DNA of 64,000 nt from an uncultured Prevotellaceae bacterium. Its GTDB lineage: Bacteria > Bacteroidota > Bacteroidia > Bacteroidales > Muribaculaceae. Below are positions 47,396 through 64,000 of the stretch, one piece after another. The stretch covers positions 1-64,000 of the forward strand of contig CAMVAP010000003.1 in assembly GCA_947165485.1 (NCBI GenBank). Reading direction: 5' to 3'. A program made the translations under genes and the position numbers. The notes under the pieces were generated by a model. The model had not been told where the DNA came from. It was given only the letters and a program-made list of their open reading frames with translations, and made no database searches. Positions within the stretch are counted from its first letter, which is position 1. Every line of letters starts with the position of its first letter.

Positions 47396-49864
47396 ATGAC
47401 CAACCTTCCTCTTGCTAAATTTTCTTTTTTATTATTCTTACTCGTGTCGCCGTTTCTCTATTTGCCCGTTGGTGCTGTCACTATCGAGGACGGTGTGTCT
47501 TTGCAATTGGCCCGGTATCGTGCCGACAACATCCGTGACGTCAGCTATCAGCTCTCGTTTTCGGTGCCCGATGACATGAGCCAGCCGGTGACTTTCTTTG
47601 AGACCCTGCGTTTCAACTGGCTGGGGAACGAAGATTTGCAAATCGATTTTCAGGGCGATGCCAGCCAGCTCGATGCCGTTATCATGGTCAACGGCAAGGC
47701 GGTGGATGCCGACCTGCGCCATGAGCACATTATTATCCCCAAGCGTTTCCTGCACGTGGGCGAGAACAAGATCTTGATGGGTGGCGAGAGTGGTGATAAG
47801 GCCCTTAACCGTCACGAGGACTACCTCTACACCCTGTTTGTCCCCGACCATGCCCGCAGCGTGTTCCCCTGTTTTGACCAGCCCGACTTGAAGGCTTGTT
47901 TCAATGTCGAGCTTGACCTGCCCGATGGATGGGTGAGCTTGAGCAATGAGACGAGCCATCCCATTCCTACCTATCTGTTCTCCTTCACGGCGGGCAAGTT
48001 CCAGGTGCAGCCTGCTTATCGTGACGGGCGGGAACTCGTTGCCCTCTATCGTGAGACCGACCCCGATAAGGTGGCTCAACTGCCCACTGTGTTTGACCAA
48101 GTGGCGCTGTCGTTGCAATGGATGGAGCGATACACGGGCTTGGATTATCCATTTGAGAAATACGGCTTTGTCATCCTGCCCGGCTATCAGTTTGGCGGCA
48201 TGGAGCATCCCGGTTGCATCCAGTTTACCGACCACGAGATATTCCTGGGGCCTCATGCCTCGATCGACGAGCAGATGACCCGCCTCAACCTGATCGCTCA
48301 TGAGACGGCACACATGTGGTTTGGCGACTTGGTCACCATGCGGTGGTTTGACGACGTGTGGACCAAGGAGGTGTTTGCCAATTTCATGGCCGATAAGATC
48401 TCGCGGGAGCAGTTCCCCACCATCAACCATGACCTGGCCTTCATCAAGACGCATTACCCCCTGGCGATGAATACCGACCGCTCGCTGGGCAGTCACCCCA
48501 TTCAGCAACCGCTGGACAACCTTAATCAGGCTGGTTTGCTCTATGGCAACATCATCTACCACAAGGCTCCCATCATGATGCGCAAACTGGAGCAGGAGAA
48601 GGGGGCCGAGGCCCTGCGCATGGGACTGCGCAGTTACCTCAGGCGCTATGCATGGGGCAATGCCACCTGGGATGACTTGATGGCCGAACTGGACAAGTTT
48701 GAGCCGCAACACAGCGCGCGCTCGTTTAGCGACGTGTGGGTCAAGCAGCGTGGACTGCCTGTTATCTCCTGCGCTGCCAGTGATGAAGGGAGCCTTGAAG
48801 TCATCCAGCAGGATCCGCTGGGACGCGGCCTCGTGTGGAAGCAACAAGTGGCCCTGGGCGCTGCCAAGCCTTCACAGGGCATGGAGAGTGTCCAGCACGT
48901 CTCGATGGACCGTAGCCGTGTCATGGCCTATGTGCCCGACGGCCTTGTTCCCGTCTTGAATTGCGATGGTGAGGGGTATGGCCGCTTTGCTATGGATGGC
49001 CAGGCTCTTGAATTGCTGGAGCGTGCGTGGCAGACCCTGGATGATGACATCTACCGCCAGGCCGCCGTGCTAAACCTCTATGAGAACTACCACCTGGGTA
49101 ATATCGATGCCTCCTCCCTATTAAACACGCTGATGGAATTTCTCTCCCACGAGACCAACGAGCAGATCGCATCCATCCTGTGCACGCAGCTTTCTACCCT
49201 GTGCACCCGCACCCATGACGCGGGCCGTCCCCAAGTGGAGCAGCGGTTGCTCGACATGGCCATGACCCACGACGTCCAGCTGGTGCGCCAGTCCCTGTTG
49301 CGGCAGTTGTCACTGATGGCTGTTTCGCCCGATGTTGTGGCACGGCTATATGACATCTGGAGCGGGCGCACTTCTCCACTGCTCAGTGGCCGTGACTATA
49401 CCCGCATGGCCTATCACCTGGCCATCATGAATCCCGACCGCTGGCAGCAGATCCTGGCGACCCAGCGCAGCCGTCTCGTGAGCGAGGACGAACAGCGGGA
49501 ATTTGATTTCGTTTCCCGCGCCTGCAATCCCGATGAGGAGGTGCAGCAGCAGTTGTTTGACGACTTGCTCAAGGCCGAGAACCGCCGCGTCGAGCCATGG
49601 GCACGCACGATGATGGCCTTGCTCAATGACCCCACGCGGGAGCCTTACAGCAACCGTTACCTGCAACCCGCCCTCGATGCCCTGGAGCAGGTGCAGCGCA
49701 CCGGCGACATCTTCTTCCCGGGGTACTGGCTGTCGAGCTTGTTGAGTGGCCACCGCAGCCCCGAGGCTCGCCACATCGTTCAGTCATGGCTGGATGCCCA
49801 CCCGTCATTAAAGCCCGCCCTGAAAAACAAGGTGCTGGAAAATGCCTATTGGCTCTTTTTCTAG
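47396..49864 (+). CDS. M1 family aminopeptidase
   Basis: An 822-residue zinc aminopeptidase with an N-terminal signal peptide (FSFLLFLLVSPFLYLPVGA). The catalytic domain has GGMEHPG (about 268, exopeptidase motif), H302-E-T-A-H306 and the distal Glu in WTKEVFANFMADK, plus a catalytic Tyr in the SYL segment further on. The C-terminal third is a helical ERAP1-like domain. It removes N-terminal residues from peptides in the periplasm, like the C1B peptidase at 3-4 kb. The start is immediately behind a repeat array. Confidence 0.93.
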   Translation: MTNLPLAKFSFLLFLLVSPFLYLPVGAVTIEDGVSLQLARYRADNIRDVSYQLSFSVPDDMSQPVTFFETLRFNWLGNEDLQIDFQGDASQLDAVIMVNGKAVDADLRHEHIIIPKRFLHVGENKILMGGESGDKALNRHEDYLYTLFVPDHARSVFPCFDQPDLKACFNVELDLPDGWVSLSNETSHPIPTYLFSFTAGKFQVQPAYRDGRELVALYRETDPDKVAQLPTVFDQVALSLQWMERYTGLDYPFEKYGFVILPGYQFGGMEHPGCIQFTDHEIFLGPHASIDEQMTRLNLIAHETAHMWFGDLVTMRWFDDVWTKEVFANFMADKISREQFPTINHDLAFIKTHYPLAMNTDRSLGSHPIQQPLDNLNQAGLLYGNIIYHKAPIMMRKLEQEKGAEALRMGLRSYLRRYAWGNATWDDLMAELDKFEPQHSARSFSDVWVKQRGLPVISCAASDEGSLEVIQQDPLGRGLVWKQQVALGAAKPSQGMESVQHVSMDRSRVMAYVPDGLVPVLNCDGEGYGRFAMDGQALELLERAWQTLDDDIYRQAAVLNLYENYHLGNIDASSLLNTLMEFLSHETNEQIASILCTQLSTLCTRTHDAGRPQVEQRLLDMAMTHDVQLVRQSLLRQLSLMAVSPDVVARLYDIWSGRTSPLLSGRDYTRMAYHLAIMNPDRWQQILATQRSRLVSEDEQREFDFVSRACNPDEEVQQQLFDDLLKAENRRVEPWARTMMALLNDPTREPYSNRYLQPALDALEQVQRTGDIFFPGYWLSSLLSGHRSPEARHIVQSWLDAHPSLKPALKNKVLENAYWLFF

Positions 49865-49891
49865 CCGATATGTTCTACGTTTTAGACGCTT

Positions 49892-49944
49892 GCGGATGCC
49901 AACTAACAACTAACAACTAACAACTACCAACTAAAACCCAACAA
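49892..49944. repeat. Core-bearing heptamer repeat
   Basis: Core GCGGATGCC (49892-49900) followed by about five AACTAAC-type units (the last ones diverged). It lies after the M1 aminopeptidase stop, before the promoter of the giant gene cluster. Confidence 0.8.
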
Positions 49945-49992
49945 CCGAAAACAATAGTCGTGTTATTATTGTAAATAATAATGCGACATTTT

Positions 49993-50024
49993 TTTGCTAT
50001 TAATAATAGTAATGCTTATATTTG
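49993..50024 (+). promoter_or_regulatory. Promoter of the giant three-gene cluster
   Basis: TTTG (49993-49996), 20 bases, TATATTTG (50017-50024). The predicted start near 50030 leaves a leader of about 200 bases containing an A/T-rich inverted stretch and a core-bearing repeat (core 50177-50185, then AACTAGAAACTG) just before the first ATG. Nothing else is seen in the 364-base gap. Confidence 0.75.
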
Positions 50025-50176
50025 TGGCGTAAAAACCCGATAAACAATAAAATTTTCAGTTTCCGGTTTGTTTTTTTTACAAAATGCAAATTTCATGATG
50101 ATAGCGTTAATCAGCGGAATCAGTGTTTTTTTAAAAAAACTGGTATTTCAACTGAAAAATCATGCTGTAGGCATTT

Positions 50177-50199
50177 GCGGATGCCAACTAGAAACTGAA
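50177..50199. repeat. Short core-bearing repeat in the leader of the giant gene
   Basis: GCGGATGCC (50177-50185) and one AACTAGAAACTG unit, the shortest copy of this repeat family in the window, within the predicted mRNA leader. Confidence 0.7.
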
Positions 50200-50228
50200 A
50201 ATTTCAAACCTATCTTAAAACCCAAAAA

Positions 50229-53200
50229 ATGATGATGTCCGAGAACAATACCACCATATTGTCCAAGGTGGGACTCTTGCTGGAAAAGACCCGTGAGGCG
50301 TTGATTGCCGACCTGAGGCAGGAATTTATTGGAATAAGAAGTGCCGCTCTCGCCTTTGAGAAAGAGAAAACGGTCGATAACTTCGTTCCTGTCATCGATG
50401 CCGTCTTTGCACGGGTGGGCTACGACATCAGCCACTATCAAGAGCTGGATGAGGTGCGCCATGTGGTGGAAAAGCTGCTCGGCGTGACCGACAAGATTGC
50501 CGGTGTGGTCAAGTCGGGAAGCACGATGGCCGACGATGGAGAAATCTCGATCGATGAGGTGGCACGCCTGGGCGAGGACCTGCTGCCACTCATTCGAGAG
50601 GTTGTCGAGCTGGTGAAACTCGTCAGTGACGTCGAGTGGCAGGCTGTCGCTGTCGACCTGCAACAGTCCTCCCACGACATCGTCCAGAGCATCAGGGACG
50701 AGATGTTCACCCGGGAGTTTGCCCGCAAGGTGCTGGACCACGTCCTCATGACGCTGCTCAAGAACGCCCGCGTCGTGTTCAAGGACGAGATAGAGTTTGC
50801 CCGTCTCACCATCGAGAGTGGCGTTCAGCAATTTGTTGACAATGCCCGCGATCTGGCCCACGTCCTTGAGGAAAATGTCCTCGATGTGGTCGATGCCCGT
50901 CTTGACCTGATACAGGACACGATGAGGGAGACCCTGGCCGATGCCGCCGACCTTTACAAGAGGCTAGGTGAGCAGATGGAGGCTCAGGCGAGAAATGATC
51001 TACAGACGCTTGCCAGGGAATATAACGCTACCTATGTCAAGATTGCCAACGGATTGAGTATCACCTATAGTATTCTCGATTTTCTGGGTATCGTCGAGTC
51101 CAAGAGAATCACCTTGCAGTTGCCTGATGGATTGAAGGAGGCCGTGGGCAAGGTGCAGGGCGCGGTCGATGACGTGGCAGGCAAGATTGGCGCAGCCGTG
51201 GATACGGCATCGCCACTGGTGGCCCAGGCCACTTCTTCGATCGTCGGCACACTGGACGAGGCCATGATGACTACCCGCCATGTCACTGGCATGGGTGTGG
51301 CCGCTGCGGGAACCATCGGCCTGCAGCTGGCGATGGTGGATGACTTCATGATGGACGCGGCGACCGATGTCGCTTCGGGCCTTGCCACAATCGAGGCCGC
51401 TGTGGCGGGATCCATCAAGGAGGCGGCCAACTTCAAGAACAATGCCAACCAGGTCGCCGAACGGTTTAGCAAGGAGGTCAATAAAATCAAGCAATGGCGT
51501 TACCCCGTCACGATAACTGTCGTCAGTTGGGAGAAAATTGAGGACCTTTTCACCCGACCCGTCCAGCACTTCCAGGCTTTGTATCCCATCGATAGCATAG
51601 CCGATGTCGAGAGCCTCATGACACGCATCATGGGCATCCTCCACAACATCAACCCCAACATTCCCGACTTCTCCTCGCTCAAGAAAATGCTGGAGGACCT
51701 CTTGCGTAAGCTGCAACAGCATATTCTCAAGAAGGTGGCCGAGTTGAAGGACATGATGCTGGATGCCGCTGGCGAGGTCAAGAAGAAAATACAGCAGGCC
51801 ATCAACGACCTGTGGAACTGGTTCCAGCCCGTAGTCACCACCATCCGCAACGTGATCACCATGCTCAAGGAACTGGCCACGGCGCTCAAGGGCGAGATGA
51901 AGGAAGTCCTTGAGCAGGTCAAGGAGGGAACAAGGCTCATCGCCCAGGACCTGCAAGCAGAATTTGATGCCATCAAGGACCAGCTCCAGCGGGTGGAAGA
52001 GGCCGTCGAGGATTCCCTGCAAGACGCCAGCGACGTGGTTCGGCAGGAGGTGAACGGCATCGTCGAGCAGGCCAGGGAGAACATCAACAACATCTCCCGC
52101 AAGGCACAGGCATTCAAGGATGATATTGAGCAGCAGGTGAGCCTTGCGACCAGTGAAGCCCAGGATGCCGTCAGTGGCATGGCCCATGACGTGCAGGACA
52201 CCGCGGGACAATATGTCAACGAGGCCCGTGCCCTGTGGGACGAGTTGAAACAGGATATGCCACGGATGCCTAAGCTCAACCTCCCGCGGGTGGTCAAGAC
52301 CGCTATTGCCCAGCCCATGGCCGAGTGTGTGAACAAGACCCTCAAGGAGGTGGCCGACCTAGACTTGAGCAGCGTCATCAACTTTGGCCAGGAGCGTGAC
52401 GAGCTGGTGGCATGTGTGGCGGCCTTGAAATCCGATTATGCACGCATCCGTGCCGCGAGGGTCAATACCGTCTCGCTGGGGCTGAGCGAGAAGGATTTCA
52501 CTGCCATTTGCGACATGGATTTCATCACCAGCTGGAAGGCCGCCTTGCAGCTGCCCGACATTTCCCGCATGGTACAGCAGGTGGTCGTGCCTGATCTGCA
52601 GGCCTGGGCATGGGGCTTGGTGAGCAGCGTGCAGACGCTTGTCAGCCCCACCGTGTGGAAAAACAGGCTCGACGCGGTGGTCACCCAGTTGCAGGCCGAG
52701 TTCCAGAACGACCTGAGCAACATCACGGGTCTCATTTCCAGGGAGGGAGCCATGCGACTGGTGAGCGACGCGTCGTCGGTAAGGGACCAGTTGGCGGTGA
52801 ACCTGAATATCACCGACTACATCACCATCATCGAGACTGCCGTGGACGATGTGGTGCTGCCCGACCCCGAGTATTACTACACCAGCTTCAAGCAGTGTGT
52901 GATGGGAATCATCACACGGCTCACGGCCTGCATCCTGCAAGAAGTGCAGCGCATGAGGACTGCCGTCATGGGGGCGGTGGGTGAGCTGAAAAAAATACCC
53001 GACACGATCAGGACCCATGTTGAGAACCTGGTGGGCAAACTTGCCGCTGCCGAGCAGAAACTGGCCGCCGATCTGGCAGCTAAGCGCGATGAAGCCACCG
53101 ACGAGGCGCTGCAACTGGTGAGCGACATCAAGGCGACCGCTGTGGCGATCCTGCACGTGGCCCAGAAGATTCCTGCCACGATCGATGACCTGGTGGACCT

Positions 53201-56200
53201 GCTGCAGAACAGGGCCGTGGCCGCGGTCGCAGCGCTCAAGACGGGCGCCCGCGAGGCCCTTGAGAAAATAGCCGGCAACTTCCTCGACTGCCTGGAGGAC
53301 CTGGCCAGCGAGCTGTGGCGCAGGTTGAAGAATGAGTACATCACCCCCTTGCTGCGGGCCATCAAGGGCAGGGTCGTTTTCTTTATCAAGCATGTGATCA
53401 AGAGGAAATTGCACGACCTCATCGACTCGATCACCGATCTGAGGCACGAGGCCCAGAGCGCCATCCAGTCCCTGCTCGACAACAACGCTTTCTTCAAGCG
53501 CCTGCACGAGGCGCAGGTGGAGCTGGCCCGCCAGGTCAATGAGGCGCTTGCCGCAGCCGCCAGCACCCATCACCTGATCAAGCAGGCGTTGCCCGAGGGC
53601 CGCTTGACCCGCCTGAACCAGCTGCCAGCTCTCATCCAGGCCATCCAGGACGATGAGAAACTGGTCGAGACCATCTTCAAGAGGGCCACACTCAATATCC
53701 AGACCGAAATCGGCGCCCCCGACATCATCGTGCCGTATTATTACATCACGTGGGTACAGAATGTACTGGGGACGACCGTCAACTATGTGCAGAGCGACAT
53801 GGGGCTCAAGGATATCCTCCTGCTCGTCCAGGCGCTCTACAGGGGCATACCCGCTGAGGTGAAGCAACATGTGGCCGAAGTCCTGCCCTCGTTGCCCTCG
53901 TTGCCCAGCAATGTCTTTACCGACCTGCTCGATGATGTCACTTGCAGCTACGACCTGGACAACATGATGTGCAACGTCACGCTGCTTGACCTCAAGCCCA
54001 GCGAGGATCAAGGGAAAGGGGAAACCCTGGATTGGGACGCGTCCCTCAAGTTGCAGCTCTTTGTCATGGCGGGTCTTTACAGCAAGGACGGCTTTGTCGA
54101 GAAGAAAGACGACAAGGCCGGGGATGACGAGGCGTCCTCCAGGGACAAATCTCCCTCTGGCGGCGACGGTGACAATGACAAGGCGGTAGATCCCATGGCG
54201 GACGCTGTGCCGGCCATCTTCTTCACCCTGTTGTTGCAGGGCAAGGTGATTCTCACCTTCCACATCGGTGATAACCATCACTTGACCCTCCATGCCGACG
54301 GGCAGATCGGTGTCGAGAAACTGTCCCAGGAGACACGGGACCTCAGTGTGGGATTCTGCGTGTCCAAGAAGGACTCCGAGAAGGGCATCACCAGCCGCTT
54401 CCACGCCTTTGGCTCCACCAGGAGCCTGGGTGGCTTGCTCTACGGGGAATTTAGCCGCAATCATGGCTCCGGGTCACTGGTCATGATCGAGTCCCAATAT
54501 CTGGATGTGAAAATGGGTAATTACCCGATAGGTGCCTATGTGCTTTACAACCACAACTATCCCAAGTTCCAGTTTGACGACAAGGAGGGCGGTGGCACCG
54601 ACGTTGCCGCATTCCTTGGCGCCGAGGTGGGCACGCCTGTCGAGGGGTTCACCGCTGGCGTGATGCTTGCCGTCAAGGATTTTGAACTGTTGCTCAAGCT
54701 GCGCAACAATGACTTCTTCTCAACCTTGTTGAAGGATGATGTTTCGGCCAAGTTTGACTTGCCTGTGGCATGGGACTACCGCAAGGGTTTCCACATCGAT
54801 GGCGGCTACGCTTTCCACATCGATATCGATTGTGACAACATGCGGCTGGGCCCCGTGAAGTTCAGCAACCTGGGTGTTGACCTGGGCTGTGTCAAGGGGA
54901 ACCCCGGCGCGTTGCAGATCCAGGCAGCGCCATCGTTCTCGGTGGAGCTGGGCGACAGTGTGGTCATGACCATCGAGAACCTGGGGGTGGGCTTGACGTT
55001 CAATATGGCCCGCAAGGGTCCCGACGGGAGTTATGGCCTGGGCGACCTGGATCTGGACTTCAATTTCAAGTTCCCCGAGGGCATCGGCATCGCCATCGAT
55101 TGCCCGGTGGTCAAGGGTGCCGCCCTCATCGGGTATGATGATGTCAAGAAAGAGCTCTTTGGCGCCATGGAACTCAATGTGCTGGAGAAGTTTGGCGTCT
55201 CGGCCCTGCTCATGATGACCCTGGGCGGCCATTTCTCGATGGTGGCCATGCTATCGACCCGCTTCAACCCTGGCATCCCGCTCGGCCTGGGCTTCTCGCT
55301 GACCGCCGTGGGAGGTATGCTGGGACTGAACAGGATGCTGGACTATGACGCCATCCGCGAGTCGGTGCACAGCGGCACGCTGGAGAGCGTGTTCTTTGTC
55401 GAGGATGTGATGAACCACATCGACGACATGCGCAAGGCCGCCGACAAGATATTTCCTGCCCGGCGCGACCAGTTCTTTGTGGGGCTGCTGGGGCAGATCA
55501 GCTATGAGCCCGTGGTGAGGTGCAGCTTCGGCCTCATGTTCCAGGTGCCTGACCCCGCCTCGATCATCATTGTGGGCGCGGTGGCCGTGGGCATCCAGGG
55601 CACCGATGTCATCAGCATCCACGTGGCCTTCTCGGGCGAGATAGACTTCAAGAGGGGCTTGCAGTTCGACGCGTCGCTCTACGACTCCCAGATCGTGGGC
55701 CTGCGGCTGGAGGGCGACATGGCATTCCGTCTCTTGTGGGGCGGGCCGTCCAGGGGCTTCCTGATGTCGGTGGGCGGTTTCCACCCGGCTTACAGGCCCG
55801 AGGCCGCCATGCACGTCTCCGACCTGCGGCGATTGTCGATGAAGCTCGACTACAGCGTCTTGAAGGTGGGCATGGAAACCTACCTGGCGATCACGTCCAA
55901 CACGTTCCAGATCGGTGCCCATCTAGACATCAAGGTGGGGTGGGACCAGTTCGGAATCACGGGCTATGCGGGCTTTGACGCGCTTTTCCAGTTCGACCCC
56001 TTCATGTTCATGTTTGACATCGAGGCGGGCATGGCGGTGATGATAGGCAAGGCGCGCATCCTGTCGGTGGACCTGGCTTTGTCGCTTTCGGGCCCACGTC
56101 CCTGGCACGCCCGGGGCAGCGCGTCTTTCACTTTCTCGTTCCTGCCGGTAGATGTCTCATTCGACGTGAGCTGGGGTGACAAGAAGGAAGCATTGCCCAG

Positions 56201-56879
56201 CAAGCAGATCCAGGTGCTCAAGCTGCTGGAGGAGCAGATCCAGGATCACAACAACTGGGTCGTTGATGGGAACAGCCGTAACGATCGGGATGTCATGCTG
56301 ATGGATAATGACCAGCAAGGGACCAGCGATGAGAGCAAGCAGAAACCGCTTGTCCTGTCGCCCAATGGTGAACTCTCATTCAGCCAGAGTGCCGTGCCCA
56401 TGGAATTGGACATGCAGCTGTGCAACAATGCTGTCCCCACCGACTACTCCGAGGTCGTCCTTGATCAGGTGGAGATGAACAACAAGCCTTATCAGATTAT
56501 CAATATGTCGGAAAATCATGATGAGCGTGACGATGCCGCAAAGTTGCGGAACGCCATCGGCCAGACCATCGATGCCGACTTTGCTCCCGCTCTGTATCTC
56601 ATGATGGACAATGACGAGAAACTCAAGTCACCGTCCTATGTCAAGTACCCTTGCGGTTTTGCCATGTGCAATAGCAGCGAGCGAACTATGGGCCATGCGA
56701 CGGAATGTGACCTGGGAGCCTATGAGTGTTTTGTTCGCAATGGCAATACCAGCCAGCGGGCTTCTACCGATGTGATGCCTACTTCTTCTACCGGCAAACG
56801 TGTCGCTTACCAGAAGAATGACAAGGAGGCGATTGAGCGTTATGTGACTATTCTGGATGCTTTAGGTGTTAGGTTTTAG
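50229..56879 (+). CDS. Giant protein: helical N-terminal half and DUF6603-like beta-rich half
   Basis: A 2216-residue protein, no signal peptide. Residues 1 to about 1280 are long amphipathic helices (patterns such as QQVVVPDLQAWAW and VSDIKATAVAILHVAQKI), apolipoprotein-like and likely to form coiled coils or to contact membranes. A Lys/Asp/Ser-rich linker (about 1290-1320) leads to a beta-rich region (1320-2000). Within it GGMLGLNRMLDYDAIRESV (about 1695), ASLYDSQIVGLRLEGDMAFR, LAITSNTFQIGAHLDIKVGW, FDALFQFDPFMFMFDI and LSLSGPRPWHARGSA match my recollection of DUF6603 proteins of actinobacteria. The tail (2000-2216) is polar. The last codons (ALGVRF) and the TAG stop lie in repeat DNA. The function is unknown. 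Confidence 0.85.
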   Translation: MMMSENNTTILSKVGLLLEKTREALIADLRQEFIGIRSAALAFEKEKTVDNFVPVIDAVFARVGYDISHYQELDEVRHVVEKLLGVTDKIAGVVKSGSTMADDGEISIDEVARLGEDLLPLIREVVELVKLVSDVEWQAVAVDLQQSSHDIVQSIRDEMFTREFARKVLDHVLMTLLKNARVVFKDEIEFARLTIESGVQQFVDNARDLAHVLEENVLDVVDARLDLIQDTMRETLADAADLYKRLGEQMEAQARNDLQTLAREYNATYVKIANGLSITYSILDFLGIVESKRITLQLPDGLKEAVGKVQGAVDDVAGKIGAAVDTASPLVAQATSSIVGTLDEAMMTTRHVTGMGVAAAGTIGLQLAMVDDFMMDAATDVASGLATIEAAVAGSIKEAANFKNNANQVAERFSKEVNKIKQWRYPVTITVVSWEKIEDLFTRPVQHFQALYPIDSIADVESLMTRIMGILHNINPNIPDFSSLKKMLEDLLRKLQQHILKKVAELKDMMLDAAGEVKKKIQQAINDLWNWFQPVVTTIRNVITMLKELATALKGEMKEVLEQVKEGTRLIAQDLQAEFDAIKDQLQRVEEAVEDSLQDASDVVRQEVNGIVEQARENINNISRKAQAFKDDIEQQVSLATSEAQDAVSGMAHDVQDTAGQYVNEARALWDELKQDMPRMPKLNLPRVVKTAIAQPMAECVNKTLKEVADLDLSSVINFGQERDELVACVAALKSDYARIRAARVNTVSLGLSEKDFTAICDMDFITSWKAALQLPDISRMVQQVVVPDLQAWAWGLVSSVQTLVSPTVWKNRLDAVVTQLQAEFQNDLSNITGLISREGAMRLVSDASSVRDQLAVNLNITDYITIIETAVDDVVLPDPEYYYTSFKQCVMGIITRLTACILQEVQRMRTAVMGAVGELKKIPDTIRTHVENLVGKLAAAEQKLAADLAAKRDEATDEALQLVSDIKATAVAILHVAQKIPATIDDLVDLLQNRAVAAVAALKTGAREALEKIAGNFLDCLEDLASELWRRLKNEYITPLLRAIKGRVVFFIKHVIKRKLHDLIDSITDLRHEAQSAIQSLLDNNAFFKRLHEAQVELARQVNEALAAAASTHHLIKQALPEGRLTRLNQLPALIQAIQDDEKLVETIFKRATLNIQTEIGAPDIIVPYYYITWVQNVLGTTVNYVQSDMGLKDILLLVQALYRGIPAEVKQHVAEVLPSLPSLPSNVFTDLLDDVTCSYDLDNMMCNVTLLDLKPSEDQGKGETLDWDASLKLQLFVMAGLYSKDGFVEKKDDKAGDDEASSRDKSPSGGDGDNDKAVDPMADAVPAIFFTLLLQGKVILTFHIGDNHHLTLHADGQIGVEKLSQETRDLSVGFCVSKKDSEKGITSRFHAFGSTRSLGGLLYGEFSRNHGSGSLVMIESQYLDVKMGNYPIGAYVLYNHNYPKFQFDDKEGGGTDVAAFLGAEVGTPVEGFTAGVMLAVKDFELLLKLRNNDFFSTLLKDDVSAKFDLPVAWDYRKGFHIDGGYAFHIDIDCDNMRLGPVKFSNLGVDLGCVKGNPGALQIQAAPSFSVELGDSVVMTIENLGVGLTFNMARKGPDGSYGLGDLDLDFNFKFPEGIGIAIDCPVVKGAALIGYDDVKKELFGAMELNVLEKFGVSALLMMTLGGHFSMVAMLSTRFNPGIPLGLGFSLTAVGGMLGLNRMLDYDAIRESVHSGTLESVFFVEDVMNHIDDMRKAADKIFPARRDQFFVGLLGQISYEPVVRCSFGLMFQVPDPASIIIVGAVAVGIQGTDVISIHVAFSGEIDFKRGLQFDASLYDSQIVGLRLEGDMAFRLLWGGPSRGFLMSVGGFHPAYRPEAAMHVSDLRRLSMKLDYSVLKVGMETYLAITSNTFQIGAHLDIKVGWDQFGITGYAGFDALFQFDPFMFMFDIEAGMAVMIGKARILSVDLALSLSGPRPWHARGSASFTFSFLPVDVSFDVSWGDKKEALPSKQIQVLKLLEEQIQDHNNWVVDGNSRNDRDVMLMDNDQQGTSDESKQKPLVLSPNGELSFSQSAVPMELDMQLCNNAVPTDYSEVVLDQVEMNNKPYQIINMSENHDERDDAAKLRNAIGQTIDADFAPALYLMMDNDEKLKSPSYVKYPCGFAMCNSSERTMGHATECDLGAYECFVRNGNTSQRASTDVMPTSSTGKRVAYQKNDKEAIERYVTILDALGVRF

Positions 56880-56956
56880 GTGTTAGGCTTTAGGTGTTTG
56901 CGGATGCCAACTAGAAACTAGGGACTAGAAACTAGAAACTAAAAAACTAGAAACTG
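56862..56956. repeat. Core-bearing repeat overlapping the 3' end of the giant gene
   Basis: TTTAGGTGTTAGG units begin inside the coding sequence of the giant gene and supply its TAG stop (56877-56879); then core GCGGATGCC (56900-56908) and AACTAGAAACTAGGG units run to the next ATG region. Confidence 0.85.
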
Positions 56957-56958
56957 AA

Positions 56959-59900
56959 ATGGGTAATAAAGTATATATATTGAATTATCTGCGCAAGGGT
57001 CTCATTAACAATGTGACCAGTGAAGACGCTGTAAGCCCTGGAACTTCACGGGCGCACATCGACATGAACCTTAAATTTCAGGTCAAGGATGCGGGCACGG
57101 GTAGAACCCACGACCTGGTTTTGCCCGGACAGCGGATTGAGCTGCTTGGCCCTGCCGATGTCAAGGGCGTGAACTCCCGAGCCATCTGCCGGGTTTCACC
57201 CGCCCAGTCGGGCGACGTGCGTCTCAATGCCAGTTACCGCCCCTATATGGAATTCTATGAAGAAGACCTGCCCTGGCGGTACACGCCCTTCGCACCAGGC
57301 AGTAGCAGTTTCCTGCCCTGGATGAGGCTGGTTGCCGTCAAGGTGGATGAGTGTGTGATTTCGTTCAAGGGCGGAGTGAAGATAGCTCGCATCAACCTCA
57401 CCCAGGAGAGAATAAATGAGGTGTTCTGTGCAACCGATCAGCACGCCAGGAGCGCTCATGTACAGATCGATGTCGATGACAACTTCAACGGCAATCTGGA
57501 CGAGGAGACCGTCAATCAGTTGCTTGACGAGAATCCCGATTGCGGCATCTCGCGCGTGCTGTGCATGAGCAAGCTGGAACCGGCAACGCAATATATCCTG
57601 TTGCTCATCCCCACCTATGAGCAAGGACGGCTATCGGCGCTGGGCATGAGCCTGGATGGGGTGAACATGGATGCCCTGGTGGCTCCACAGCCTGGCATAG
57701 ATCTGGAATTACCCATCTACTACAAGTGGAAATGCATGACCGCAACCCACGACGGCACGTTCAAGGTTCTGGCTGACAAGCTGAATTTCACACCAGCCGA
57801 GGATTACAAGAAAATGGAGGCCAACTTGACAGTGGATATCAGCCACAGCGGGCTCAAGACCGTGAGCTTTGACCAGGAGAAGAAGATTGATGTCCCTGCT
57901 GCCCTGGTGATGAATGACAATCCCTATAGCCATATCGACGACGAGGGGCAGAACTACCGCAACGAGTTGTTGAAGCACCTCTCGCTAAGCCCCGTGCTCG
58001 ACGAGAATGAACTGGAGGACGTGAACCAGGAGCAGGACCCCTGGGTGGTGCCCCCAGTGTATGGCGCTCGGCACCTCATGACCACGCGGACCGACCTTGA
58101 AAAAGGCCGCGATGCTACACTGGTGGGCGAGGTGAACCTCAAGCTCCACAACCGCATCGTCGCTGGCATGGGTGGAACAGTGGTCATGGACAATCAAGAG
58201 GAATTTGTGAACCGGGCGTGGAAAAAGGTCGAGGTAGTGAATGCCCTCAACCAGTTGCTGCGTGAGTATTACCAGATGAATCAGGTCAACAATCGTGCCA
58301 TGGGGATGAATGCCCGCTCGTCAATCAACAAGGCGGTGCTCAACAAGCAGAACGAGGGACTGATCAGCGACGCGGCACTGCGCATGCTCCAGACTTCGGG
58401 CATTTATTACAATAATGTGGCCCCCGACACCCTGCTCGAACAGTATAACGGAATGAAGGAAAAGGACAGCGGCGAGGTCTATGCGGGAATATCGAAGGAT
58501 TATTTGGCTCGGCTCTATGACCCCGACATGTGGAAGGGGGTCATCGATGCTGACAACAAGCATGACTACCTCTCGGGATTGTTCATCAACGATCAGGCAT
58601 GGGGCGAGGACGGTATGGCCGATGTCGATTTCCTGCGGGGCTTGTTCCGCACCGCGATGGTTGATGGCAAGGCCCGTCTCCTGCCGCGAGACGGTGCGGA
58701 GGAGAAGCTGGAAGCGACCCCACGGTCGCTGATGATGAGCGAGGACTGGGAAAACATCCGCGCTATCCTGAGTGACGATTCTAACGAGCTGGACATGACC
58801 AGAGCTTACAACGCCCTCAAGGGACTGGCCGACCGCTACGAGACCTTCAACGAGATGCGCATCACGGGCTTCACGGCCATCGGGACCAACAAGAATCATG
58901 CGACCCAGGCACAGATGCGCCCTTATCCCATCCACGTCAACAACCCCTACGGCCACACCTGCATCGTCCCCGACAGCTGCTTCTCGGGGCTCGTGGTGGG
59001 CGGCGTGAAGGTGGGCCTGCGCCCGCTGGCGGTCGAGTATTTGGCCCGGGAGAGCGACAAGTCGCCATCCTACTTCTTTATTGTCCCCAAGTCTTGCCTC
59101 GACACGTTGTCACCGGCTTATTACCTGCGCATAGACGAGGTGCTGTGTCCCGTGGAGTGCAACGGCGGCAAGTACTCGCTGGGTGATGACAAGAACTCCT
59201 ATGCCGCGATTGTGCTTCAAGCCTGTGCACCCCAGCATTCCACCATCTACAAGCAGCTGGCGGCCAACCTGGAATGGATGAAGGACCGCAACTTGTACTT
59301 GACACTTGAGAACCCCAAGAAGGGTAAAAAATATGAGCTCAAGGAAACCGAGCCCCACTTCCAGCGCAAGATTTATAATGATAATTGCCAGACGTCGATC
59401 AAGGATACCCGTGAGTTCAAGTACAAGTGGCTCAAGTGGAGCCACGGTGGCATATCAGATCAGTTTTTCTTCTACCAGTGCGATGCCAAGGGTAAATGCG
59501 TGCAGTGGGATCTCGATATCACTATCTACCGCAAGGTGCTCAATGAAGTGCTGGATAACTTGCGGGCGCTGGAATCATTGATGCTGCAACCCACCGATGT
59601 CAACATCTCGTTGTATGAGAATGATCCGCGATGTGTCATCATTTCACCCCAAGTGCTGTTCAAGGCCCTGCAAGAGCAACTGGAAAAGGACCAGGACATG
59701 AGCTTTGCCGACAACAAGGAACTGACGCAGATCCATGAAGAGGTGAAAAAACAGAACGCCATCATCCAGAGCGAGCTCAATATCAAGCCGCAGCCAGCGC
59801 CGGCTCCGTCGACCCAGGCCGCTGTGATCGATGTCGTGGATCCCGGTCAGCTGGCCAGGGACAGAATCAAGGAACTGGCCGAACGGTATGGCGTCACCGA

Positions 59901-60597
59901 GTACAACCAGCTGGAGGACAGGCTTCATGACAAGTATCCGGTCATGATTCACCCCGACTACCTGGATCCCACTTATTTCTACCTGCGGGAGTTGTCGATC
60001 GACTATGTGCTTCCCGCATCAGGCAACCTGGCCCGGAACTCGATCTCCTGCTTCTACAGCAATCAGGCCTTTGAGGAAGCGTTCCTGCTGGGCATGAACA
60101 CCGAGATGGGCCGCGAACTCATGTGGCGGGAATATCCCACCGACCAGCGCGGCTCCTACTTCCGCAAGTTCTGGGACCAGGCGGAGTTGCCCGGCAAGGA
60201 GGAGTTGAAGACCCGCTACTACGACATCGAGGATATCGACAAGTGGAAGGGCAGGCTCGGGCAGAATCACAAGGCCGGCAAGGGCACGATGCTGGTGTTG
60301 GCCATCAAGGGTGAACTCATGCAGACCTTCCCCGATACCGACATCTTCTTGCAGAGGCTGGGCGCACCGGGCAAAAAAGGTACTGGCGAACAGATCATCA
60401 AGAAGGACATGGCCTCATGGCTCACGCCCGACACCTACCTCGTGGGGTTCAACGGCATCAAAAAGGAGGACCTCAAGAACTACATGCTGATTTTCCAGCA
60501 GAAACCGCTATCCCTGCAATTCTCGGAGCAAGCCGAGGGGCTGAACAACCCATGGGGTATTGTCAATCCGCAGTGTTACATCATGCGGGCGGTGTGA
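56959..60597 (+). CDS. Giant uncharacterised protein, second gene of DUF6603-like cluster
   Basis: A 1212-residue soluble protein with no recognised catalytic motif. Three stretches resemble, in my memory, conserved sites of large actinobacterial and myxobacterial hypothetical proteins beside DUF6603 genes: QYILLLIPTYEQGRLSALG (about 211), LELPIYYKWKCMTATHDGTF (about 249) and DPWVVPPVYGARH (about 360). Residues 120-200 contain DVDDNFNGNLDEETVNQLL, an EF-hand-like loop. A helical segment with a Pro-rich linker (PQPAPAPSTQAAVIDVV, about 945) separates the last 250 residues. It may be a structural part of a large assembly; this is inference. Confidence 0.75.
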   Translation: MGNKVYILNYLRKGLINNVTSEDAVSPGTSRAHIDMNLKFQVKDAGTGRTHDLVLPGQRIELLGPADVKGVNSRAICRVSPAQSGDVRLNASYRPYMEFYEEDLPWRYTPFAPGSSSFLPWMRLVAVKVDECVISFKGGVKIARINLTQERINEVFCATDQHARSAHVQIDVDDNFNGNLDEETVNQLLDENPDCGISRVLCMSKLEPATQYILLLIPTYEQGRLSALGMSLDGVNMDALVAPQPGIDLELPIYYKWKCMTATHDGTFKVLADKLNFTPAEDYKKMEANLTVDISHSGLKTVSFDQEKKIDVPAALVMNDNPYSHIDDEGQNYRNELLKHLSLSPVLDENELEDVNQEQDPWVVPPVYGARHLMTTRTDLEKGRDATLVGEVNLKLHNRIVAGMGGTVVMDNQEEFVNRAWKKVEVVNALNQLLREYYQMNQVNNRAMGMNARSSINKAVLNKQNEGLISDAALRMLQTSGIYYNNVAPDTLLEQYNGMKEKDSGEVYAGISKDYLARLYDPDMWKGVIDADNKHDYLSGLFINDQAWGEDGMADVDFLRGLFRTAMVDGKARLLPRDGAEEKLEATPRSLMMSEDWENIRAILSDDSNELDMTRAYNALKGLADRYETFNEMRITGFTAIGTNKNHATQAQMRPYPIHVNNPYGHTCIVPDSCFSGLVVGGVKVGLRPLAVEYLARESDKSPSYFFIVPKSCLDTLSPAYYLRIDEVLCPVECNGGKYSLGDDKNSYAAIVLQACAPQHSTIYKQLAANLEWMKDRNLYLTLENPKKGKKYELKETEPHFQRKIYNDNCQTSIKDTREFKYKWLKWSHGGISDQFFFYQCDAKGKCVQWDLDITIYRKVLNEVLDNLRALESLMLQPTDVNISLYENDPRCVIISPQVLFKALQEQLEKDQDMSFADNKELTQIHEEVKKQNAIIQSELNIKPQPAPAPSTQAAVIDVVDPGQLARDRIKELAERYGVTEYNQLEDRLHDKYPVMIHPDYLDPTYFYLRELSIDYVLPASGNLARNSISCFYSNQAFEEAFLLGMNTEMGRELMWREYPTDQRGSYFRKFWDQAELPGKEELKTRYYDIEDIDKWKGRLGQNHKAGKGTMLVLAIKGELMQTFPDTDIFLQRLGAPGKKGTGEQIIKKDMASWLTPDTYLVGFNGIKKEDLKNYMLIFQQKPLSLQFSEQAEGLNNPWGIVNPQCYIMRAV

Positions 60598-60771
60598 TTA
60601 GGCTTTAGGTGTTAGGCTTTAGGCATTAGGTGTTAGGCTTTAGGTGTTAGGTGTTAGGCTTTAGGTGTTTGCGGATGCCAACTAGAAACTAGAAACTAGA
60701 AACTAGAAACTAGAAACTAGGGACTAGAAACTAGAAACTAGGGACTAGAAACTAGAAACTAAAAACAGAAA
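60597..60771. repeat. Long core-bearing repeat between the second and third giant genes
   Basis: TTAGGCTTTAGGTG-type units start at the stop codon of the second giant gene; core GCGGATGCC (60671-60679), then ten or more AAACTAG/GGACTAG heptamers to within four bases of the third gene's ATG. Confidence 0.9.
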
Positions 60772-60774
60772 CTT

Positions 60775-63700
60775 ATGAAGAAATATCAAGATATATTACG
60801 GGATCAGACCAGTAGAAACTTTGCCGCCAAGGGGGTCAACACCTCGATGCTGATGTTGCCCCTGCGGCTGGAAACCAAGATCATGACCAGGGAAGTGGAC
60901 GTGACCGATGAACCTGAGCGGGCATTGGAGGCGTTCAAGCTGTTGCACAACCTGCTCCAGCACTACTACCAGCTGGTGAGCATGGGCGGTAGCAAGTCCA
61001 GGAATGAAGAGGCCACGAGAAACTTGAAACTTGAGATCGGGGATGTCATTGCGGCCTTTGAAAAACTGGACCTGCTCTATGCCGAGGACAAGTCTTACCT
61101 CAAGGATCTCGCCCAGGGCATTTATCACACGCTCCACTGTGTGGAATTGCAGGACGCCTTTGGGCCCCTGCTGTGGGCGCTGGACGACATCACCCGCTTG
61201 ACGACGCGGTGTGACAAGGCGGCAACGACGTTCCTGCGCCAGCTGGAGCGCATCACCCGTATGCTGGAAAACACGGCCAGGCGACCGCTCTTCAGCGGCC
61301 ATCGACGTGAGGGAAACCCCGAGAAATATTCCCAAACGGCCCGCTTCAAGTTGGCCGACAAGCGGTATCAGGAAATCAACAGTTGGTTTGAAGTCGTGCG
61401 CAATAAGCGCAAAATTGTTGAACTGGCCAGCGCCATACAGCCTGGCATGATGACCAAGAGCCAATATGCCAAATATACCCGGCTCACCGCTCGCATCGTG
61501 GCCGTCCTGGATGATCCGCATGTCAAGGATTATACCGTGTTGACAAGGGCCTATCCGCTGGAGTTTTCCCGAACGGCTGACGGCCATCCCGTTGATAAGA
61601 AACAGAGCGATGATAGCGATGATTCAACAAGCAGGAGATTCAAGCAGTGGAGTCGTCAACATCTGGTGGACACGGCTCGCAGGCTGCACGGCAACCTGAG
61701 GTCGTTTATCGACCAGGATATGGCAAACCTCGGCAACACGCTGGCTGCCAAGGTGGTGCCGCATGGTCCCCAGGGCAAGAGAATGACCCCGCAGCGCTAC
61801 ACCCTGCTCGTCTCCAAGCTGATGAATGCCCAATTGTTGCTCATCCAGGCCCGCATCGCCCGTCATCCCGCCCAGCACCGCAAGGCCGTCAAGGGCGCCT
61901 ACCGGTGCCTCTCACGCTTGGAAGAGATCTCGCGGGCCACCTATTTCACCCATGAGGAGCAACGGGAGTTTGTCCGCCAGTTGGTCGCCTGCGTGAGCAA
62001 GATGAAATACAACCGTCGCCCCGAGCTCGTCATCCAGGGGTGTGCGCCCATCGGTGAGTGCCTGGTCACGAGCGAGGGCGGCATCAAGAAGACCAAGTCC
62101 TGCAAGTGCTTGTGCCTGAGGATTTACCCCGATGTGGTGGCCCTGTTGCAGACAGCGCGGCAGATCAGCCGCCAGGAGTACCTGGCCGGCAAGGACTTCT
62201 GGCTCAAGTACATCTACAACGGGGACGAGGGGTATCGCCACTCGCTATGGCTTGCCATGTGCGACATCTATCCGCCCTACCGTGCGGCCCTGATCCTCAA
62301 GCGCACCTACCCCGCGGCCCACTACAAGACGATGTGCCGCAAGGCCCGGGAATTCCGTGACAACAGGCTCCCGATCGAGGATTTCATCCGGGAAATCGAC
62401 GACAACTTTGTCAATTCCTTCCCGACGACCTATGTCGATAACGGCGAGCAGCTGTTCTCGGTTCCTGTCACCAATCTGCTGCCCGACCGATTTGTGGTGC
62501 ACGCCGCCGTCAAGACGCGGGTCAAGGCCAGCCGCACGATCGTCCAGTATGGCCATCGCCTGCCACGGCAGTTGCAGGTGGGTATTGACCTCAACCACCT
62601 CGATAGCGCAACCCGGGAGAAACATGCCACACCGGGCAAGAACCAGCTCTACCTCAATGGCGGGGTGAGCTGGATGACCGACTATGACGAGGCCGAGCGC
62701 CTGGGCATGGCCATCACCGTGCCCCTCGATGCCATGAAGACGGGCTTGAAACAGAGCGTGCGCAAGTTTGAGTTCAATGAGATTTTTGTCTATGGCATTA
62801 ACGAGGCTGGCGCCAGCGAGTGCGACAAGATGATCGAGGAGCTGTTGACGGCTCACCTGTATAGCGGCAAGGCGATGGACATCATCCCGTTTGACGCCGC
62901 ATCCAACATCATCACGGACGAGGACGCCAAGTGGGCCTTTGACAGCTCTGAAAGCAAGCAGCGTGAACGATTCAAGCATCAGGCACACAACTGTGTCAAC
63001 CCCCACAAGCCCGAGAAAGGCAATGACCTCGACATCCTGGACCGCCTCCTGGGACTCAAGGAGAGCGTCCTGGGCAACCTCGATGACCCCAGCGCTCCAG
63101 CCGCTGCCGAGGTCGAGCTGCAACGCCGTGTCAACCGGTTGATGATCGAGTACATGACCGACCCCGCCCTGGGACCCCTGGTCAACCCATTGCTCACGGC
63201 GATCAAGGGCAGCCCGTTGCTCTATGACTACCTGTGCAACGACGTGCTGCCGCGCGGGCCGTTCCCCATGCTGCGCATCGGCGACCAGCCCTATGGCATC
63301 CTGCCGGCATGTGACTTGAGGAACCTGGCGGTGAAGTCGAGCAACCCGCTGGCTATCGTCAAGAAAATCCTCCTGGTGCTCACGACCCACTGGAACAGCA
63401 TCCTGGAGCAGAACATCGTCACCTGCTATGGCAAGGACTCGCAGGGCGGTGGCGCGACGGTCACGACCCAGGACTACCTGCACATCCTTGGCAATACACC
63501 GCGCAGCACCTCGTTCTACAAGCGCAAGATGGTCAAGGGCGGCGTGATCGACGCTGAGTACTGGAGAGGGGAATTGTATCAGAACCAAATCGAGGAGCTC
63601 ACCCAGATGGCCAGCAACCTGGGCATCATCGCCGCTGGCGACAAGGAGAAAATCAAGAGCATCATCCCCGACTATGACTACGTGCCCGTCAAGGTGCCCA

Positions 63701-64000
63701 ACGAGGAAACCCAGCAGGACGATGCCTGCCTGGCGGTGCACGACGCACTCGACCTTGACAATATCGTCGGCTATATCACGGCAAGCATCAGGAAGAGCAA
63801 TGAGGCCAGCACGGGACTCAAGTTGAGCGAGTCACCCGAACTCATCAGGAGCCACGTCATCGAGTTCTTTGACATTTTCAACTATCGGCTGGACGCATGG
63901 CTGATGGGTATCGTGGCCGGCAAGCTGCGCATGAGGATGGAAAGGGGCACACACCGCCTGGCGCTGGGCTGCTTTGGATGGCTGTTCAACCTCAGGGAGG
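60775..64000 (+). CDS. Giant uncharacterised protein, third gene of DUF6603-like cluster (partial)
   Basis: An open frame of 1075 codons that runs past the window end, from ATG 60775 (MKKYQDILRDQTSRNF). The N-terminus has TSMLMLPLRLETKIM, like the LLPVRLETRF opening of large actinobacterial proteins as I recall them. Residues about 60-400 are helical and basic. Near 832 is FPMLRIGDQPYGILPACDL and near 1038 RLDAWLMGIVAGKLRM, continuing to GCFGWLFNLRE at the edge; these resemble the RIGxQPYGVLP and RLDAWxTxxAxRRL motifs of the same group. No signal peptide or enzyme motif is seen. The true length is unknown. Confidence 0.78.
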   Translation, partial: MKKYQDILRDQTSRNFAAKGVNTSMLMLPLRLETKIMTREVDVTDEPERALEAFKLLHNLLQHYYQLVSMGGSKSRNEEATRNLKLEIGDVIAAFEKLDLLYAEDKSYLKDLAQGIYHTLHCVELQDAFGPLLWALDDITRLTTRCDKAATTFLRQLERITRMLENTARRPLFSGHRREGNPEKYSQTARFKLADKRYQEINSWFEVVRNKRKIVELASAIQPGMMTKSQYAKYTRLTARIVAVLDDPHVKDYTVLTRAYPLEFSRTADGHPVDKKQSDDSDDSTSRRFKQWSRQHLVDTARRLHGNLRSFIDQDMANLGNTLAAKVVPHGPQGKRMTPQRYTLLVSKLMNAQLLLIQARIARHPAQHRKAVKGAYRCLSRLEEISRATYFTHEEQREFVRQLVACVSKMKYNRRPELVIQGCAPIGECLVTSEGGIKKTKSCKCLCLRIYPDVVALLQTARQISRQEYLAGKDFWLKYIYNGDEGYRHSLWLAMCDIYPPYRAALILKRTYPAAHYKTMCRKAREFRDNRLPIEDFIREIDDNFVNSFPTTYVDNGEQLFSVPVTNLLPDRFVVHAAVKTRVKASRTIVQYGHRLPRQLQVGIDLNHLDSATREKHATPGKNQLYLNGGVSWMTDYDEAERLGMAITVPLDAMKTGLKQSVRKFEFNEIFVYGINEAGASECDKMIEELLTAHLYSGKAMDIIPFDAASNIITDEDAKWAFDSSESKQRERFKHQAHNCVNPHKPEKGNDLDILDRLLGLKESVLGNLDDPSAPAAAEVELQRRVNRLMIEYMTDPALGPLVNPLLTAIKGSPLLYDYLCNDVLPRGPFPMLRIGDQPYGILPACDLRNLAVKSSNPLAIVKKILLVLTTHWNSILEQNIVTCYGKDSQGGGATVTTQDYLHILGNTPRSTSFYKRKMVKGGVIDAEYWRGELYQNQIEELTQMASNLGIIAAGDKEKIKSIIPDYDYVPVKVPNEETQQDDACLAVHDALDLDNIVGYITASIRKSNEASTGLKLSESPELIRSHVIEFFDIFNYRLDAWLMGIVAGKLRMRMERGTHRLALGCFGWLFNLRE

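Follow-up and report, generated by a model that had tools for sequence, protein, structure and literature searches.

Introduction

Conflict systems coupled to effector-associated domains (EADs), such as those of VMAP, iSTAND and GAP1, bring together interchangeable effectors, including trypsin-like peptidases, with a small shared domain and a fixed core; a core component bears a further copy of the EAD, and these cores depend on nucleoside triphosphates (PMC7159879). Here we describe a locus of comparable layout, whose first gene encodes a DUF6603 protein (PF20248, listed in Pfam as a family of unknown function). The locus begins in a 64,000-base stretch of DNA (hereafter the window; bases 1-64000 of the 97,862-base contig CAMVAP010000003.1, or C3) from the 3.03 Mb genome of an uncultured Prevotellaceae bacterium, in which four consecutive genes, designated A to D, occupy approximately 18 kb. 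The main finding is a fixed core of these four genes combined, in many of its carriers, with a changing enzyme encoded just upstream of A.

Conserved organization of the A-D operon

A prediction made earlier from the letters of the window (the original prediction) described a cluster of three uninterrupted frames of 2216, 1212 and at least 1075 codons on one strand, with intervening gaps of 79 and 177 bases. The frames are real and their coordinates exact; the cluster as described was incomplete, since reading the contig past the window shows that C extends to 1815 aa and is followed by a fourth gene:

Gene A: 50229..56879, + strand; uninterrupted frame of 2216 aa, main A-family profile match at residues 925-2179
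DUF6603 domain (PF20248) of A: 54840..56441, + strand; assigned by Pfam, amphipathic beta-meander in the structural model
Gene B: 56959..60597, + strand; 1212 aa, unnamed family
Gene C: 60775..64000, + strand; first 1075 of 1815 aa (ends at contig position 66222), unnamed family
Gene D: contig positions 66283-68205, outside the window; 640 aa, 60 bases after C

Protein A matched the Pfam model of DUF6603 at 309 bits (gathering cut-off 27; E 7e-92) over residues 1538-2071, as had been supposed from sequence patterns. Proteins B, C and D of the same genome matched no family in Pfam, NCBIfam, PADLOC or PHROGs, unrelated known families included, which agrees with their earlier description as unnamed proteins. 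Family profiles of A-D retrieved no convincing relative among PDB sequences, and Pfam searches of the window's A and of 14 C, 13 B and 16 D proteins, with wider neighbourhoods not scanned, identified no NTPase. Some relatives have additional known domains: of the 16 D proteins scanned, three possess lamin-tail domains, and of the 14 C proteins, one possesses a decapeptide-repeat region. One of the 16 D proteins matched the C-terminal domain of ribosomal protein L7/L12 (E 3e-36); by alignment it is the D of genome G024 (L017:7038-9479), in which an insert containing a repeated stretch was also seen. The window's D lacks this insert.

From 98 collected loci, some of them mutual duplicates, all four genes were identified in 81, and in 80 of these they follow the order A-B-C-D on one strand, in many bacterial phyla as well as haloarchaea, bearing out the original prediction of conservation across phyla. 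The remaining 17 loci miss at least one gene, several of them being short contigs or split stretches. Median gaps between A-B, B-C and C-D were -4, 9 and 2 bases, and the respective junctions overlapped or spanned at most 20 bases in 66, 53 and 65 of the 80 loci, overlaps being possibly overstated by the mechanical calling of gene starts. The only exception in order, L040, reads B-C-D-M64 peptidase-A, such that A has moved behind D with the M64 gene still abutting it. The four proteins also diverge in parallel, with pairwise distances correlating at r 0.90-0.96 (72 loci; uncorrected for kinship). It is almost certain that A-D constitute one conserved system. Two further arrangements concern the boundaries between these genes: C and D are encoded in a single frame in Sphaerisporangium (L086) and Streptomyces canus (L096), which supports a physical link between them, and on a Rhizobium plasmid (L009) B and C are each broken into two consecutive frames at what are likely domain borders.

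An exchangeable enzyme gene upstream of gene A

A second feature, not part of the original prediction, was found at the position immediately upstream of A. Defining a slot gene as a same-strand gene ending at most 250 bases before A, we were able to read this position in 71 loci and identified a slot gene in 62, of which 40 encode an interchangeable leaderless enzyme. Comparison with representatives assigned the 62 to trypsin-like proteins (17), subtilases (8), M64 peptidases (8), PhoD phosphatases (3), phospholipase D (PLD) enzymes (3) and a beta-lactamase-like protein (1), together with unnamed families (10 + 2) and 10 unclassified genes. Pfam supports these class names, with the limit that few trypsin-like members reach the NAL1/trypsin models, the others being placed by similarity. 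The 50 labelled rows of the D tree fall into eight slot classes and require at least 24 changes of class. Catalytic motifs are mostly intact, and several of the misses correspond to open reading frames (ORFs) cut by the end of the locus. Trypsin-like slot proteins retain GDSG in 17 of 17 cases and the trypsin His in 16; subtilases retain the Ser in 8 of 8, the His in 7 and the Asp in 5; among the other classes HExxH was detected in 6 of 8 proteins, HxKxxxxD in 3 of 3 and the PhoD motif in 2 of 3.

Despite their different catalytic domains, trypsin-like and subtilase slot proteins have in common a C-terminal adaptor domain of approximately 120 residues (for example, one pair is 36.6 percent identical over 101 residues, E 4e-17). 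Twelve adaptor copies (9 trypsin-like, 3 subtilase) served to build a profile, which detects the domain in all 17 trypsin-like proteins and in 4 of the 8 subtilases; 8 and 1 of these, respectively, are independent of profile building. The gene upstream of A is, we consider, probably a functional slot.

Additional arrangements were observed around this position. Adaptor-bearing slot genes occur in tandem in L019, L022 and L100/L128, and a stand-alone adaptor frame (L035:396-779) lies beside a trypsin-like gene. Unrelated-looking upstream genes include an acyltransferase at 206 bases (L052, L065) and an L-PSP protein at 33 bases (L050), and in three loci with longer flanks (L026, L027, L098) the next upstream gene is on the other strand.

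Distribution and phylogeny

A pattern scan for C across 84,980 species genomes, with matches confirmed by a profile of the C core, identified 382 stretches encoding a C relative, which makes the system common; 80 of these were retained for analysis. Among IMG/VR viral contigs, none of 40 pattern matches was confirmed as a C relative. A tblastn search with D returned 14 plasmid records, from Streptomyces, Nocardia, Rhizobium, Paraburkholderia, Gemmatirosa and four haloarchaea. Carriers span many bacterial phyla and haloarchaea, and include Nitrosomonas, Amycolatopsis, Paenibacillus and Streptomyces; in actinobacteria and myxobacteria, as in many other groups, DUF6603 genes have relatives of B, C and D next to them, so that the gene neighbourhood given in the original prediction proved right. 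The D tree, with 14 phylum labels and 16 unlabelled rows, requires at least 26 phylum changes compared with a mean of 35.9 for shuffled labels, reflecting both clustering and mixing. Horizontal transfer is likely, although part of the change count stems from paralogues and mis-binned contigs.

At closer range, DUF6603 was found in 3 of 150 relatives, the window's own genome included, the same-genus carriers being G024 and G089. Within 395 genomes of the phylum, again including its own, DUF6603 exceeded the cut-off in 16 and D was present in 8. In each of the 8 genomes with D, DUF6603 lies on the contig that bears D, and this is the co-occurrence of homologues that had been named beforehand as the test of the proposed system. 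Conversely, 8 of the 16 genomes with DUF6603 over the cut-off gave no D match; taken with the nine loci without C and D described below, this indicates that DUF6603 alone is insufficient to define the system. DUF6603 was present in 50 of 50 genomes picked from the 80 C-bearing loci, most of them already known A carriers, and 8 of the 50 possess at least two DUF6603 matches (G156, G158, G163, G173, G186, G189, G190 and G195).

The nine loci (L163-L171, from eight Bacteroidota genomes) represent a second DUF6603 operon type in which C and D were not found, and in which B is distant in 7 loci and undetected in 2; several also hold another protein of approximately 1000-1340 aa starting roughly LLVPxxxxAL. 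On a Streptomyces anthocyanicus plasmid (L008) A-C are missing and D is preceded by IS5-family transposase genes. A 40 kb scaffold from human faeces that is neither annotated nor verified, L007 (MT835531.1, labelled Bacteriophage sp.), carries B-C-D and is probably mislabelled bacterial DNA, given that no C relative was confirmed in viral contigs. Downstream of D, the next gene in ten loci is like those of transfer RNA (tRNA) 2-selenouridine synthases, which we take it to encode from our own reading of its sequence (rhodanese + P-loop). It is on the same strand in L030, L031, L032, L036, L066 and L091 and on the opposite strand in L052, L065, L070 and L076; these genes are related to one another, and their carriers belong to Bacteroidota, Acidobacteriota, Fibrobacterota and Actinomycetota.

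Cellular location and predicted structure

Export leaders were sought with two hydropathy rules of thumb, not a trained predictor. The first, which caught 3 of 4 control proteins from the window's own genome that we take to be exported, detected no leader among 344 core proteins, the 83 A proteins included, or 43 slot proteins, in agreement with the lack of signal peptides noted originally. A wider test allowing a later start marked 4 of 344 core proteins, among them 2 of the 83 A proteins, and 0 of 43 slot proteins, none of them signal-like. A very hydrophobic stretch was identified in 39 of 84 B proteins, nearly always at positions 540-680; in 23 of the 39 it comprises two hydrophobic segments, read here as a putative membrane hairpin. 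The structural model of A predicts a long amphipathic beta-meander in DUF6603, the faces of 30 predicted strands scoring +2.08 and -0.71, with 0 of 1000 shuffles as high.

The Bacteroidales form of protein A

The window's copy differs from most others in the N-terminal part of A, where one further feature was recognized:

Amphipathic-helical extension of A: 50229..52988, approximately residues 1-920, + strand; seen in Bacteroidales relatives

The main match to the A-family profile starts at residue 925, preceded by three weak matches (best domain E 6e-8). The extension, described originally as the helical N-terminal half of the protein, is indeed present in Bacteroidales, being common to Hoylesella, a Bacteroides-labelled metagenome-assembled genome and Candidatus Egerieousia, but comparison with the long A proteins of Mongoliibacter and Arthrospiribacter showed no such extension there. 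The window's B is without the membrane segment found elsewhere in the family, and no adaptor match was obtained in the window, the contig extension or the stretches read of G024 and G089. The gene upstream of A in the window encodes an M1 aminopeptidase with a signal-like start (Pfam; hydropathy), a relative of which was not found in the stretches read of G024, G089, G150 and G151.

Interpretation of the system

The best reading of the system, which we hold tentatively and at somewhat short of even confidence, is that of a membrane-active carrier or activator of an exchangeable enzyme. A-D would be the fixed parts of one leaderless multi-protein complex, which at one copy each would comprise 5883 residues in the window's genome, or roughly 0.65 MDa. 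Most other carriers would obtain from the gene directly before A an exchangeable enzyme that docks on this core, the C-terminal adaptor probably serving as the link in the two serine-protease classes. The core itself would be membrane-active, with DUF6603 forming an extensive antiparallel sheet, hydrophobic on one face, and with B in about half of the family contributing a hydrophobic segment, often a hairpin; together these might hold the enzyme at the lipid bilayer or insert it, in the manner of AB-type toxin carriers. We infer physical assembly, membrane insertion and delivery from the features described above. A more specific version, in which the system is a non-phage, membrane-inserting enzyme-delivery machine of bacteria and archaea, with a carrier of four leaderless giant proteins that would possess an amphipathic beta-sheet and a membrane hairpin and be loaded through an adaptor with a hydrolase encoded next door, is possible but doubtful.

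A number of observations weigh against a membrane-active carrier. Parallel divergence would be expected from shared inheritance too; among the 62 slot genes, 22 belong to an unnamed family or to no class, and some of these are probably spurious ORFs, while 9 readable loci have no counted slot gene, although in one of these (L019) two adaptor-bearing frames were passed over by the ORF rules. The adaptor profile finds no other enzyme class and none of A-D among the collected ORFs. Many slot enzymes belong to families usually exported via signal peptides, yet none was found to have one by the rules used. Strong hydrophobic segments are missing from 45 of 84 B proteins, the window's included, and the model of A is moderately confident (pLDDT 68.7, pTM 0.52), its PDB matches having root-mean-square deviations (rmsd) of 10-13.5 angstrom. 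Finally, neither the window nor the congeners read have an enzyme in the slot, so that the enzyme is not obligatory. The window's lineage may work without a slot enzyme, may obtain one from elsewhere in its genome, or may use the helices instead, in which case the long helical extension of A may dock or replace the enzyme.

Leaderless parts and a hydrophobic segment in B fit both delivery to other cells and an intracellular conflict system, and the evidence does not separate the two. In the latter, the main rival, which we regard as rather unlikely, a cytoplasmic core, often anchored to the inner membrane by B, would sense infection or damage and release the docked enzyme within its own cell. 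This is consistent with patchy presence and plasmid carriage, and with scores against defence families: the one slot subtilase scanned matched PADLOC 'subtilase' (2e-26) and IetS (9e-10), and the one slot PLD scanned matched DrmC of DISARM (PADLOC 2e-5; NCBIfam 1e-8, under its cut-off). The adaptor-plus-effector logic also resembles that of EAD systems (PMC7159879), although the adaptor, unlike EADs, is not repeated on a core component. A-D themselves match no PADLOC family apart from hits to the helices of A (ZorA at 2e-7 and weaker; LmuB, LeoB), and the proteins scanned contain no NTPase family. Helical PADLOC matches such as ZorA are typical of coiled coils, and M64 and PhoD enzymes would be unusual defence effectors.

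The amphipathic character of DUF6603 also admits a lipid-handling assembly, in which the domain would form a lipid-binding hydrophobic groove or belt, as in bridge-like lipid-transfer proteins or apolipoprotein B, with the enzymes as accessories. ApoB100 is among the best Foldseek matches of the A model (E 3e-4), the predicted strands alternate strongly, and PLD and PhoD are among the slot enzymes; however, the TM-scores are at most 0.16 on query length, and lipid transfer leaves unexplained why proteases dominate the slot (33 of 62). Apolipoprotein-like helices on the window's A (Pfam A1/A4/E, PF01442) reach 45 bits, under the cut-off of 90, and fall within the lineage-specific part of the protein, and we consider lipid handling improbable. 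An origin from a phage tail, with the helical half of A as tape measure, is very improbable: PHROGs tape-measure matches with E down to 1e-14 lie inside residues 106-753 of A, but are confined to the helical extension missing in most other carriers, and B, C and D of the window's genome match no PHROG. This agrees with the lack of a confirmed C relative among the IMG/VR matches, and the D model gave no viral structural match at E up to 0.001. Least credible of all is that A is an ordinary outer-membrane beta-barrel of the porin or usher type with helper proteins. Although porins, ushers, LptD and TonB-dependent receptors make up most of the structures listed nearest to A, their rmsd values suggest a strand order in common more than a shared barrel; furthermore, A has no signal peptide by the rules used, and Streptomyces, Amycolatopsis, Paenibacillus and haloarchaea are carriers without the usual outer membrane.

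Regulatory features and repeats of the window

Upstream of A, two candidate regulatory elements were identified:

Terminator-like hairpin: 49957..49987, + strand; 14-pair stem with T run, consensus match only
Bacteroidetes-type promoter pattern (TTTG / TAnnTTTG): 49993..50024, + strand; from a consensus scan

The consensus TTTG-N18-22-TAnnTTTG, which we take to be of the Bacteroidetes type, has 9 matches in the window against 0.53 expected, of which one precedes A and none falls between A, B and C. For this pattern the original proposal of a single promoter in front of the cluster holds; a sigma-70-type scan is less clear, with 11 sites in 49700-64000 against 7.1 expected, and marks a site overlapping the start of B in addition to one before A. 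The hairpin follows the M1 aminopeptidase gene and precedes the promoter pattern, but terminator-like matches in the region are not above shuffles (9 versus a mean of 11.2). As originally noted, the A-B and B-C gaps are filled by short repeats, among them TTTGCGGATGCCAACT, which with at most 2 mismatches has 5 copies in the window against 0.03 expected, all on the + strand between 47307 and 60683. Tandem runs of the ACTAGAAACT type adjoin these copies. On the 3' side of D, approximately 2 kb without a long same-strand frame are followed by genes of other kinds.

Comparison with known systems

The findings suggest a widespread machine for carrying or controlling an enzyme at a membrane, no description of which was found in the open-licence PubMed Central literature, preprints and most subscription papers lying beyond the search. 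Although the system is common, B, C and D belong to no named family, and A is represented by a domain of unknown function. If either delivery or conflict were true, it would be a large unrecognised class of machine extending from Nitrosomonas and Streptomyces to haloarchaea, for which the adaptor and the exchangeable enzyme provide direct handles for testing. A clearly belongs to PF20248, to which the present analysis adds the partner families and the enzyme slot.

Toxin carriers and immune complexes are laid out in the same way, as a fixed core combined with an enzyme that can be swapped. Tc / ABC toxin complexes similarly consist of very large leaderless carriers with an exchangeable enzymatic payload; the payload here is a separate upstream gene, profiles of A-D match no solved structure convincingly, and the likeness is one of logic only. 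Extracellular contractile injection systems are likewise leaderless and patchy, with exchangeable cargo, and occur in bacteria and archaea, but no tail proteins are found in A-D (PHROGs match only the helices of A; flanks were not scanned). Domains of NAL1-like trypsin-family proteases (PF25819, PF25608) occur on few members of one slot class, whose versions differ in ending in an adaptor also present on unrelated subtilases. Closest in logic are the EAD-coupled conflict systems, which have a different core and use the adaptor differently (PMC7159879): here the adaptor was not found on A-D, no Pfam NTPase occurs in the A-D proteins scanned, and the core consists of four giant proteins, three of them unnamed.

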